A stretch of 59,570 nucleotides of DNA. It comes from Hyphomicrobiales bacterium (GTDB taxonomy: Bacteria; Pseudomonadota; Alphaproteobacteria; Rhizobiales; Xanthobacteraceae). Below, in pieces: positions 41,099 through 59,525 of this stretch (position 1 is its first letter; every line of letters begins with the position of its first letter). The notes beneath the pieces are model-generated. The model ran no database searches, was not told the DNA's origin, and was given only the letters and a program-made list of their open reading frames with translations. A program made the translations under genes and the position numbers. The stretch covers positions 1 to 59,570 of the forward strand of contig JAFKKM010000035.1 of NCBI GenBank assembly GCA_017305555.1. The letters are read 5' to 3'.

Positions 41099-41272
41099 GT
41101 CGTCCCCGCGTAGCAGACCTTTCCGTCGTCATGGCCGGGACCATAGGCGAGCGAAGCGACGCCGTTCTTCGAACGGCTACGGGCGAGCGAAGCGACGCCG
41201 TTCTTCGAACGGGGCTATGCCCGGCCATGACGGAAACAATGGGTTACGGGTCCCCGCCTTCGCGGGGACGAC
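41099..41272. repeat. GTCGTCCCCGCG repeat pair (diverged) around a tandem repeat
   Basis: GTCGTCCCCGCG at 41099-41110 and the full inverted unit GGTTACGGGTCCCCGCC...GGGGACGAC at 41241-41272 form a pair of the same family as those at 48631, 53111, 54717 and 59301. The interior holds a tandem 31-bp repeat and a CATGGCCGG/CCGGCCATG palindrome. There is no gene in it. Confidence 0.7.
41146..41212 (+). repeat. Tandem 31-bp direct repeat
   Basis: Two identical 31-base units (41146-41176 and 41182-41212) start GGCGAGCGAAGCGACGCCG and end TTCTTCGAACGG, separated by five bases. A third unit with one mismatch is at 58770-58800. Confidence 0.9.
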
Positions 41273-48630: not shown

Positions 48631-48750
48631 GTCGTCCCCGCGAAGGCGGGGACCCATACGCCGCAGCGCTTCGGCTCCATCACCCAGGGCGAGTTTGTTC
48701 TTCACGACCAACGCCAGGGGTTATGGGTCCCCGCCTTCGCGGGGACGACG
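48631..48750. repeat. GTCGTCCCCGCGAAGGCGGGGACC repeat pair in the pstS-pstC spacer
   Basis: A left unit (48631-48660) GTCGTCCCCGCGAAGGCGGG and an inverted right unit (48717-48750) GGTTATGGGTCCCCGCCTTC face each other over about 55 bases. Each unit is itself a small palindrome. In the transcript this forms long hairpins just after pstS. Confidence 0.9.
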
Positions 48751-52383: not shown

Positions 52384-53085
52384 ATGAAGGCTCGCATTCT
52401 GGTCGTGGAAGACGAGGAGGCGCTGACGACGTTGCTGCGCTACAACCTCGAGGCCCAGGACTACGAGGTCGAAACCGTGGCGCGCGGCGACGAGGCCGAC
52501 ACAAGGCTGAAGGAAAGCATTCCCGATCTGGTGGTGCTGGACTGGATGCTGCCCGGCCTGTCCGGCATCGAACTGTGCCGGCGGCTGCGGGCACGGCCGG
52601 AAACCAAACAGCTTCCGATCATCATGCTGACGGCGCGCGGCGAGGAAAGCGAACGCGTGCGCGGGCTCGCCACCGGCGCCGACGACTACATCGTCAAGCC
52701 GTTCTCGGTGCCGGAACTGCTGGCGCGCGTTGCCGCACTGCTGCGCCGCGCCGCCCCGGAGCGGGTGGCGAGTGTGTTAGCCTACGGCGACATCGAACTC
52801 GATCGCGAGAAGCGCCGTGTCGCGCGCTCGGGACGTCCGATCGATCTCGGCCCGACCGAATATCGGTTGCTTGAGTTTTTCCTCGAGCATCCGGGCCGCG
52901 TGTTCAGCCGCGAGCAACTGCTCAACAGCGTCTGGGGCCGCGACATCTACATCGACGAGCGCACCGTCGACGTCCATATCGGCCGCCTGCGCAAGCTGCT
53001 CAATCCGGCACAGGAAGAAGACCCCATCCGCACCGTCCGCGGCGCCGGCTACGCACTCGACGACCGGTTTCAGAAGGCGGGGTAG
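52384..53085 (+). CDS. phoB: Phosphate regulon response regulator PhoB
   Basis: The 233-residue OmpR-family regulator has a receiver (acidic EDEE, phospho-Asp in VVLDWMLPGLSG, Lys in DDYIVKPF) and a C-terminal winged helix (about 130-230; GPTEYRLLEFFLEHPGRVFSREQLL). It is 13 bp downstream of phoU and should bind the 47375-47403 Pho box. It completes phoR-pstSCAB-phoU-phoB. Confidence 0.96.
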   Translation: MKARILVVEDEEALTTLLRYNLEAQDYEVETVARGDEADTRLKESIPDLVVLDWMLPGLSGIELCRRLRARPETKQLPIIMLTARGEESERVRGLATGADDYIVKPFSVPELLARVAALLRRAAPERVASVLAYGDIELDREKRRVARSGRPIDLGPTEYRLLEFFLEHPGRVFSREQLLNSVWGRDIYIDERTVDVHIGRLRKLLNPAQEEDPIRTVRGAGYALDDRFQKAG

Positions 53086-53110
53086 ATTGTAATCGGGAAG
53101 TACATTCTGG

Positions 53111-53144
53111 TCGTCCCCGCGCAGGCGGGGACCCAGACTCCCTG
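53111..53144 (+). repeat. Left 34-bp inverted repeat flanking the GIY-YIG gene
   Basis: This unit has the family core TCGTCCCCGCG...CGGGGACC and ends AGACTCCCTG. Its reverse complement matches 53490-53523 at 33 of 34 positions. It is the same dispersed repeat as at 48631, 54717 and 59301. Confidence 0.95.
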
Positions 53145-53188
53145 CGATCATGATACGATCAGCGACCAGCCGCGGTCACGGTCACCTT

Positions 53189-53470
53189 ATGTACCATGTC
53201 TACATTCTCGCCAGCGGAAATCACGGCACCTTGTACATCGGTGTCACGAATTCGCTGCGCACGAGACTTGATCAGCATCGACGCGGCGAAGGCTCAACAT
53301 TCGTCAAGCAATACGGGGTGGATCGACTCGTTTATGTCGAGGTTTATGAGCGGCCGGATGAAGCTATCGCTCGCGAGAAGCAATTGAAGCGCTGGAATCG
53401 CGATTGGAAGATTCGACTGATCCAGGAAAATAACCCGGATTGGAGCGACCTCAGCCATCTTGTCGAGTGA
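53189..53470 (+). CDS. Small standalone GIY-YIG nuclease-domain protein
   Basis: This 93-residue protein is a minimal GIY-YIG domain of the UPF0213 type: VYILAS (GIY strand, residues 4-9), LYIGVT (YIG strand, 15-20), R24/R26, H30 and the catalytic Glu of REKQLKRWN (E63), all present. It could nick DNA. Nothing else is in the interval: the gene begins 44 bp after one repeat and ends 19 bp before the inverted copy, so the two repeats and the gene form one 413-bp unit (53111-53523). ATG 53189 is chosen from the family N-terminus; an open frame reaches 53150. Confidence 0.93.
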   Translation: MYHVYILASGNHGTLYIGVTNSLRTRLDQHRRGEGSTFVKQYGVDRLVYVEVYERPDEAIAREKQLKRWNRDWKIRLIQENNPDWSDLSHLVE

Positions 53471-53489
53471 GCATCGATCCAAACTGGGT

Positions 53490-53523
53490 CAGGGAGTCTG
53501 GGTCCCCGCCTTCGCGGGGACGA
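53490..53523 (-). repeat. Right 34-bp inverted repeat flanking the GIY-YIG gene
   Basis: CAGGGAGTCTGGGTCCCC... ends GGGGACGA; it is the reverse complement of 53111-53144 with one mismatch. No clear target-site duplication is seen just outside the pair. Confidence 0.95.
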
Positions 53524-53542
53524 CTCCGGTGATGGGATTTTC

Positions 53543-54679
53543 TCAATACTGCCGTGCTTCCGCGAGCCGCTCGGCATGATAATTGTCGTCGCCGAACAAT
53601 TCCTGGCAGACACGCGCGCGCTTCATGAACAGGCCGATGTCGAACTGGTCGGTCATGCCCATGCCGCCGTGCATCTGCACGCCTTCCTGCACCGCGCGGG
53701 TCGCAGTGGTGCCGGCGCGGGCCTTCGCCACCGAGACGGCATGGCTCGCCTTGGCGGCGTCCTGATCGAGCGTCTGCAACGCCTTCAAGGTCGCAGCGCG
53801 GCTGATTTCGATATCGATGTAGAGCGTCGCGGCGCGGTGTTGCAGCGCCTGGAATTCGCCGATCAGTTTGCCGAACTGCTTGCGCTCCTTGAGATAGGTG
53901 ACCGTGCGATTGAACACTTCTTCGCTGAGGCCCACCATTTCGGAGGCAACCGCGCCGCGGCCGATGTTCAGTACGGCGTCGAGCAGGTCGCTGCCCTGAT
54001 CGACTTCGCCGAGCACGGCGTCGGCACTGACCTCGACATTGTCGAAATTGATGCGCGCGGCATTGTGCGCGTCGACCATCACGGTGCGCTCGACGCTGAC
54101 GCCCTTTGCTTTCGGATCGACCAGGAACAGGGTCAGCCCACCGCGTTCGCCGGCGTTGCCGCCGGTGCGCGCCGCGACGATCAACAGGTCGGCGACGTGG
54201 CCGTCAACGACGAGGGCTTTCGCGCCGTTGAGTTTGAAACCATTGCCGGCGCGAACCGCCTGCATCGCGATGTTGAGCGGCCGGTGCTTGGCGCCTTCAT
54301 CGACGGCGAGCGCGGCGATCAGCGAGCCGTCGGCGATTTTCGGCAGGTAAGCCGCCTGCTGTTCGGCGTTGCCGCGCGTCAGCGCGGAGACGGCGAGCAC
54401 GGCGGTGGAGAGGAACGGCGAGGGCATCAGGTTGCGGCCGATTTCCTCCAGCACGATGCCGGCTTCGACCGCGCCAAGTCCGCTGCCGCCGAAATTTTCC
54501 GGCACCAGCAGGCCGGCGAAGCCCATCTCGGCAAAGCCTTTCCAGAGGTCGCGGGAGAAGCCGGTGGCATCGCGCTCGTCGCGCATCTTGCGCAGGTGCG
54601 CGACCGGAGCCTTTTCGTTGATGAAACCACGCGCGCTGTCGCGCAGCATGGATTGTTCTTCGGTGAGGACGAGGGGCAT
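53543..54679 (-). CDS. Acyl-CoA dehydrogenase, small-subunit type
   Basis: The 378-residue flavoprotein has the ACAD fold: N-terminal helices, FAEMGFAGLLVPENFGGSGLGAVE, a beta domain with GFKLNGAKALVVDGHVADLLIVAART, and C-terminal QALQHRAATLYIDIEISRAATL and GGMGMTDQFDIGLFMKRARV. The lack of a strong FAD/substrate signature in one half fits a heteromeric partner, like the small subunit of pimeloyl-CoA or steroid ACADs. It lies 166 bp downstream of the 394-residue ACAD; a repeat pair fills the spacer. Confidence 0.88.
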   Translation of the reverse strand: MPLVLTEEQSMLRDSARGFINEKAPVAHLRKMRDERDATGFSRDLWKGFAEMGFAGLLVPENFGGSGLGAVEAGIVLEEIGRNLMPSPFLSTAVLAVSALTRGNAEQQAAYLPKIADGSLIAALAVDEGAKHRPLNIAMQAVRAGNGFKLNGAKALVVDGHVADLLIVAARTGGNAGERGGLTLFLVDPKAKGVSVERTVMVDAHNAARINFDNVEVSADAVLGEVDQGSDLLDAVLNIGRGAVASEMVGLSEEVFNRTVTYLKERKQFGKLIGEFQALQHRAATLYIDIEISRAATLKALQTLDQDAAKASHAVSVAKARAGTTATRAVQEGVQMHGGMGMTDQFDIGLFMKRARVCQELFGDDNYHAERLAEARQY

Positions 54680-54716: not shown

Positions 54717-54834
54717 GTCGTCCCCGCGAAGGCGGGGACCTATACGCCGTGTCGTTCCGATTGAAAAATGATGTCGATGTCACGACAAACATGAGCTCTA
54801 GGGGTTATGGGTCCCCGCCTTCGCGGGGACGACG
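54717..54834. repeat. GTCGTCCCCGCGAAGGCGGGGACC repeat pair between the two ACAD genes
   Basis: Left unit 54717-54750 and inverted right unit 54801-54834 face each other across about 50 bases. This is the same family as at 48631, 53111/53490 and 59301, here without a gene inside. Confidence 0.92.
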
Positions 54835-59300: not shown

Positions 59301-59428
59301 GTCGTCCCCGCGCAGGCGGGGACCCATACGCCGTGTCGCTCATGATGTGGGCGGCGATTATCGCAACCTTTAACAGGCGGTCCCGTTGATTATGGAGTCA
59401 GGGGTTATGGGTCCCCGCCTGCGCGAGG
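59301..59428. repeat. GTCGTCCCCGCGCAGGCGGGGACC repeat pair (right unit degenerate)
   Basis: Left unit 59301-59340 is intact; right unit 59401-59428 starts GGGGTTATGGGTCCCCGCC but diverges after GCGCGAG. The pair has a loop of about 60 bases. The 307-bp region 59219-59525 has no gene. Confidence 0.8.
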
Positions 59429-59525
59429 CCTCTGCGAAAGTATTTATTTGGCTGGGGCGTGATGTTTGGCCGGAGAGATCGCTGCTGAGGCGAGAGGGGT
59501 CTGTGTTCTGTGTTGGGTGGCGGCT

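Follow-up and report, generated by a model that had tools for sequence, protein, structure and literature searches.

We have found a gene for a small GIY-YIG nuclease that is enclosed by two inverted, tagged palindromic repeats (REPs) of the CGTC type, and genes of the same subfamily are enclosed in a like manner in many bacterial genomes. That this association of nuclease and REP is a real system we hold to be nearly certain. The unit described here is probably a RAYT-like element in which an unrelated, Slx1-like nuclease has the tagged hairpin as its substrate. The evidence for the association is good; binding, cutting and movement we infer from the analogy with RAYTs and from the Slx1-like fold of the protein.

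Background

RAYTs are HUH tyrosine transposases, and the REPs linked with them are tagged GTAG. GIY-YIG enzymes hydrolyse DNA and are not known to religate it. Slx1 is a nuclease of branched DNA.

The CGTC REPs were surveyed in 2013 (Di Nocera et al., PMC3733652). According to the available excerpts of that survey, they consist of a CGTC or TGTC tag, a stem of 8-9 bp, a loop of 4-5 nt and a CCA tail, occur mostly as HH dimers, and almost always have AT as their first two stem pairs. The superfamily includes dRS3 of Neisseria as well as RPE-4 and RPE-6 of Rickettsia. These REPs "apparently lack a dedicated transposase"; the excerpts report no transposase genes flanked by CGTC repeats apart from isolated chance occurrences, and a broad spectrum of transposases is suggested there as their possible movers. 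GIY-YIG enzymes include homing endonucleases, according to excerpts of PMC1564403. The string "palindrom" does not occur in the available portion of that text, nor does "GIY" in that of PMC12306157. No paper linking GIY-YIG enzymes with bacterial REPs was found among the matches listed in a search of the open-licence PMC literature, a scope that leaves out subscription papers and most preprints.

A nuclease gene between inverted REPs

The window is the whole stretch of DNA analysed, 59,570 nucleotides of a Hyphomicrobiales genome (contig JAFKKM010000035.1, hereafter C81). A preliminary description had placed a GIY-YIG gene alone between inverted repeats, and so it lies, within arms of 35 nt and a unit that is 2 bp longer than had been claimed (Table 1). 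The arms match at 34 of 35 positions (97% complementary) across a spacer of 345 nt, in which nothing recognisable was seen besides the GIY-YIG gene; an in-frame start at 53150 would lengthen that gene to 106 codons. Both arms have GTC on the outside, with the CCA tail and GACTCCCTG on the gene side, and the base preceding GTC is G at the left arm (GGTC) and A at the right arm read inward (AGTC). As single-stranded DNA, each arm is predicted to form a hairpin (z about -3.1). The unit is neighboured by a phoB-like response regulator gene that ends at 53085 and by a convergent acyl-CoA dehydrogenase-like gene, both named from their translations. A group I intron search of 52900-53750 gave no match. 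The single match to a known RNA at the unit, RsmY, was sub-threshold (15.7 bits against a gathering score of 57) and was set aside.

Table 1. Positions of the nuclease unit, its parts and further REPs in the window
Feature	Position	Strand	Remarks
Whole unit	53110..53524	+	415 bp; homology to the C169 paralogous unit bounded by GTC tags
Left CGTC-type REP arm	53110..53144	+	GTC tag, pointing away from the gene
Build of left arm	53110..53144	+	GTC, 8-bp stem GTCCCCGC/GCGGGGAC, 4-nt loop, CCA tail, then GACTCCCTG
GIY-YIG nuclease gene	53189..53470	+	93 codons, ATG start, PF01541
Right REP arm, inverted, tag outward	53490..53524	-	
REP pair without gene, tags outward, same core	48631..48749	.	Cores at 48635/48728
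REP pair without gene, tags outward, same core	54717..54833	.	Cores at 54721/54812
REP pair without gene, second arm degenerate	59301..59429	.	Cores at 59305/59412
Single REP core	41251..41268	.	

As had been described, the same repeat recurs in the window as pairs without the gene (Table 1). In the 5.17-Mb genome, the REP core TCCCCGCNNNNGCGGGGA occurs at 200 places (none for a reversed-pattern control) and a variant core at 44. The outer part of the arms, earlier taken to be unique to this pair, is so only inside the window: AGACTCCCTG has 2 matches there, both in this arm pair (mean of shuffles 0.09), but GCGGGGACCCAGACTCCCT has 6 copies genome-wide, of which the window unit and another nuclease unit, on contig C169, have 2 each and the remaining 2 lie elsewhere.

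The nuclease protein

PF01541 matches the window protein with an E value of 9.4e-18 and is the sole profile to pass its cut-off; the HUH motif and catalytic tyrosine of RAYTs (IS200/IS605 type) are absent. Five residues, Y10, Y21, R31, E68 and N87, are invariant in 17 diverse members (alignment rows), and we take these to correspond to the conserved catalytic residues (Tyr, Tyr, Arg, Glu, Asn) of GIY-YIG enzymes. A structure model (pLDDT 94) has UPF0213 proteins and Slx1 as its nearest solved folds, followed by UvrC and I-TevI, with only the first UPF0213 match at an E value of at most 0.001. The gene is under purifying selection, with dN/dS among the window gene, the C169 paralogue and the orthologue in genome G002 of 0.05-0.10 (NG86) and 0.07-0.16 (YN00); for the window gene compared with the other two it is about 0.08-0.16. 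Such genes carry the annotation "GIY-YIG nuclease family protein".

Flanking across genomes

The source genome and 40 relatives (41 genomes) were searched, and GIY-YIG places were found in 40. From 36 genomes 98 loci were taken, namely every listed place except most UvrC-sized open frames, and a gene was called flanked when the 250 bp on each side of it reached an inverted-similarity score of at least 16. Subfamilies A to D are labels set by motif and by score to the profile of alignment A1. In this 98-locus set, 38 of the 49 genes of subfamily A, the window's own (GTLYIGVT motif), lie between inverted arms, as do 6 of 9 in a second subfamily, B. Subfamilies C (0/15) and D (0/11) have none, nor does UvrC (0/3), with flanks clipped in the frame used for 2 of the D genes and 2 of the UvrC genes; the remaining genes include one flanked case in 11, a truncated A-looking gene. 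Flanking is tied to certain GIY-YIG subfamilies. Orthologues lacking flanking repeats, which the preliminary description had named as evidence that would count against it, do exist as a minority (11 of the 49 subfamily A genes in this set). In a few of the 38 flanked A genes (e.g. L054, L083, L084, L086) the arms depart from the plain CGTC type or their tags point inward.

Two observations concern the other subfamilies. The six flanked subfamily B loci (CADGSYY motif; 6/9), L004, L018, L026 and L053, also L022 and L059, are bordered by different inverted repeats, CATCCTGAGG...CTCGAAGGATG or part of it. Upstream of L011, L012, L044 and L073, members of a non-REP subfamily with an HTAK motif, lies an apparent tRNA gene 3' end.

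A wider set of named loci, drawn from a species-level collection, comprised the best 80 of 574 confirmed loci, ranked by similarity to the window gene and thus not a random sample. Of these 80 nuclease genes, 55 are flanked. The flank score is reached by 6 of the 932 genes that neighbour them and by 3 of 1056 random windows of gene size. By genus, these best 80 of 574 divide into Bradyrhizobium (21/26 flanked) and others (34/54). Flanked records among the latter include some titled Sphingomonas, Methylobacterium, Microvirga, Parvibaculum, Niveispirillum, Candidatus Nitrotoga, Flavobacteriaceae and other Bacteroidetes, Candidatus Saccharibacteria and Candidatus Omnitrophus; the non-proteobacterial ones come from metagenome bins or from a single-cell genome, for which mis-binning is possible. 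A phylum sample, limited to the 30 top-ranked loci from a search of 299 genomes, gave inverted arms in 21 of 30; its locus L117 is L002 again, and without it the counts are 20/29 inverted and 13/29 outward. The RAYT-like layout around a nuclease of another superfamily, which the preliminary description had read from the window alone, is thereby seen in relatives (38/49), named loci (55/80) and phylum sample (21/30) alike.

In a plasmid collection, 33 records matched, and a REP pair is clear in 7 of the 12 that were read, including those of Azospirillum lipoferum, Sinorhizobium meliloti and Neisseria gonorrhoeae, whose unit has CGTCATTCCCGCG repeats of dRS3 type. Azospirillum lipoferum, Sinorhizobium meliloti and Neisseria, with flanked units here, are also listed as CGTC-positive in the excerpts of PMC3733652. 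No REP pair was seen in the Rhizobium tumorigenes, Planktothrix and Spirosoma records; the Photobacterium record has a single REP and that of Aeromonas a partial match. Plasmid carriage of close copies was considered and found unsupported, all 33 records being below 60% identity, and phage matches amounted to 2 weak records at 39% identity. One REP-less GIY-YIG gene, on Planktothrix agardhii plasmid p1 (L242), has an MmeI-like restriction enzyme on one side and a DISARM drmA gene on the other.

Orientation of the tags

A direct-repeat control discriminated poorly, with 24 of 98 loci scoring at least 26 as direct repeats and 40 of 98 as inverted ones (random cross-genome pairing, 4/400 at that score). 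This control is weak because REPs are palindromic, and orientation was therefore tested by the asymmetric tag and tail. When arms were found without any assumption about the tag, 48 of 55 pairs in the best 80 of 574 loci started with GTC within 12 nt. A strict motif was defined as GTC, a stem of at least 7, a loop of 3-15 and CCA. In the same best 80 of 574 it matched 265 times, against 4 in reversed sequences, and pointed outward at 41 of 80 loci (4 of them also inward) and inward only at 1 of 80. Control neighbouring genes (n = 932) gave 3 outward and 5 inward, and random windows (n = 14164) 11 outward and 2 inward. Among the subfamily A relatives, 15 of 49 are outward by the strict motif and 1 inward only; many of their REPs have bigger loops or different tails, and in a few the repeats are of another kind altogether. 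At L015, L084, L086 and L093, all of subfamily A, the flanking inverted repeat is longer and GC-rich (TCCCGGGCGCGGTGC...CCCGGGA) and falls outside the strict motif.

Presence and absence at orthologous sites

The window unit and the C169 unit are 88% identical over 53110-53524. Homology of the paralogous units L001 and L003 starts and stops at the GTC tags, and their flanks have no common sequence.

At the window site, the unit is present in 2 of 8 genus genomes, the source and G002. Between the same two genes, G003 and G004 have a different REP pair and G006 several REPs; in G001, G005 and G007 there is no unit and other DNA lies downstream. The C169 unit is missing from 6 of 8 genus genomes (G002 counted neither way), and three of its orthologous sites, read by eye, contain no REP. 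At the C95 site, also read by eye, the source has the gene between two REP pairs, where G003 and G006 have a single REP pair without it. A further case is Azospirillum lipoferum 4B (L235, 789-1082), where a nuclease gene between two REP pairs separates sufB from sufC; in four relatives the two genes are adjacent with no unit.

The unit behaves as a discrete element that is present or absent at orthologous sites. Presence and absence are clear at each of the phoB, C169, C95 and Azospirillum suf sites; no base-exact empty site and no target-site duplication was seen at these four, since the flanking intergenic DNA has diverged too far for exact junctions and target duplications to be read. The recent insertion suggested in the preliminary description stands in part: with paralogous units about 88% identical and the unit common to one congener, it was not very recent. 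Separately, at the C169-type site of G004 and G003 (L252 and L254), a HigB/HigA-like gene pair, as read from the sequence, occupies the place of the nuclease unit.

REP type and nuclease lineage

REP sequence varies between loci and follows the nuclease lineage. Over 82 units, protein and REP similarity are correlated (Mantel r 0.61, 0/2000 permutations), with L058 and L143, apparently one record, both counted. Thinning to 57 units left r at 0.43 (0/5000) and to 30 units at 0.26 (2/5000); with 18 very diverse units the signal was lost (r 0.04, 1531/5000). The source genome, which has 9 GIY-YIG matches, illustrates the pattern. Its paralogues on C81, C70 and C169 have CCCCGC or CCCTGC REPs, and the fourth, on C95, has ATGGCCGGG REPs, thus differing from its own-genome paralogues and matching its nearest relative, which belongs to another species. 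Of 111 other REPs in the named loci (best 80 of 574), 39 resembled the REP of their local unit and 6 that of a random other unit.

REP abundance with and without the nuclease

In the phylum sample, 25 of the 75 genomes that have the nuclease and 9 of the 224 that lack it contain at least 10 REP copies (Fisher 2.6e-10, phylogeny not accounted for). The pattern covers one stem group, presence of the nuclease means an E value of at most 1e-18 and so takes in a few partial matches among the 75, and some genomes are incomplete drafts. The highest count of one REP pattern was 574 matches in a genome. Equal abundance of the repeat in genomes lacking the nuclease, which the preliminary description had counted as adverse to its reading, is thus not the overall picture; it is seen in G077 (154 copies), G205 (110), G093 and G196, REP-rich genomes whose GIY-YIG genes are UvrC-sized only. 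G327 (11 copies) has only UvrC and one gene of a non-REP subfamily without arms, and G255, G258, G288 and G300 (10-13 copies) were classed as lacking the nuclease.

Within the genus, the cognate gene fails to predict the count of ATGGCC-type REPs, which is 33, 28 and 8 with the gene and 61, 30, 18, 1 and 0 without it; the 61 copies are those of G003, which has no subfamily A gene. Over 25 family genomes, the 9 with the cognate gene, including one truncated gene and one variant-tail unit, have the higher ranks (Mann-Whitney p 0.005, with no correction for phylogeny). Strict dependence of REPs on the nuclease is disfavoured, since REP-rich genomes without it exist; REPs therefore either outlast the nuclease or can be kept or moved without it.

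Discussion

With RAYT (TnpA-REP) systems, the REPtrons and REPINs, the window unit shares one small enzyme gene between inverted tagged palindromes and many further, gene-free REP pairs in the same genome. It differs in its enzyme and its repeats: RAYT systems combine an HUH enzyme with GTAG REPs (excerpts of PMC3733652), whereas the window unit combines a GIY-YIG enzyme with arms that start with GTC, lack the GTAG tag and have a CCA tail. Units of the window's type also differ from RAYTs in occurring as several patchy copies per genome. With the CGTC superfamily the unit shares the 8-bp stem, the 4-nt loop and the CCA tail. Many arms conform to the CGTC/TGTC tag, and the GGTC and AGTC of the window are one base off; the first stem pairs are GT/AC here instead of the usual AT, which many units elsewhere do have. 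No associated transposase was reported for the superfamily in the excerpted 2013 survey, whereas here an associated nuclease gene provides a candidate enzyme. The standalone Slx1 cluster and UPF0213 GIY-YIG proteins (PMC1564403) have the same fold, as modelled, and the same catalytic residues as the window nuclease.

We propose that the window unit is a CGTC-type REP element in its autonomous form, with a gene of its own, and that the gene-free REP pairs would be non-autonomous derivatives sharing its ends. The nuclease would most likely recognise the GTC-tagged hairpin formed by REPs of its own type, as a single strand or an extruded cruciform, and cut at or near the GTC tag. A stretch bounded by two outward tags, whether or not it contains the gene, could then be copied into, or moved to, new intergenic sites, and host replication or repair would complete the reaction. 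Reasoning by analogy, we lean towards a nuclease that acts on the REP in this way, and we infer that the spread of the repeat is driven by the nuclease.

Two other explanations are each unlikely. The gene might be a passenger, repeatedly captured between REPs that are moved by host recombination, by RAYTs or by other transposases, and might itself have no action on REPs. The abundance of REPs in some genomes without the gene is consistent with this, as is the broad spectrum of transposases suggested for CGTC REPs in the excerpts of PMC3733652; yet capture by such means does not sit well with the rarity of flanking at other genes (6/932 neighbours in the best 80 of 574 loci), with its confinement to particular GIY-YIG subfamilies, or with a REP type that tracks the nuclease. 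Equally improbable is a homing-like process in which the nuclease cuts REP-free or single-REP targets and repair from the unit installs a copy, in the manner of free-standing homing endonucleases. Such endonucleases are among the GIY-YIG enzymes (excerpts of PMC1564403); those of the I-TevI type share the catalytic domain in a mobile context, and the REP pair at the C95 site in G003 and G006 looks as if it were a target. Against this, the flanks of L001 and L003 share no sequence and so offer no allelic homology for repair, three C169-site orthologues read by eye have no REP, and the window unit is intergenic between two genes with no group I intron match and no allelic target seen; at 93 residues its protein is also too short for the DNA-binding extension of I-TevI-type enzymes.

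A host-serving Slx1-like enzyme that trims or resolves REP cruciforms, with the flanking REPs regulating or terminating its own gene, would suit the modelled fold, the purifying selection and the predicted hairpins, but is the least probable alternative given the patchy presence at orthologous sites, the several copies per genome with different REPs and the paralogue homology that stops at the tags.

Conclusions

For the reading of the unit as a mobile element driven by its nuclease, a broader form can be stated, to which we give even chances: CGTC-type REPs of several phyla may be non-autonomous copies of elements of about 400 bp whose nucleases cut tagged hairpins, and the second subfamily may do likewise on CATCCTGAGG-type repeats. 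If this is true, REP-driving enzymes had at least two independent origins, in the unrelated HUH and GIY-YIG nuclease folds, and these units are an unrecognised class of minimal mobile elements with a hydrolytic Slx1-like nuclease, not a transposase, as their driver. It would give a role to genes now annotated merely as GIY-YIG family members, and it offers a candidate partner enzyme for a large class of repeats, including dRS3 of Neisseria, with matched enzyme-repeat pairs that can be tested.
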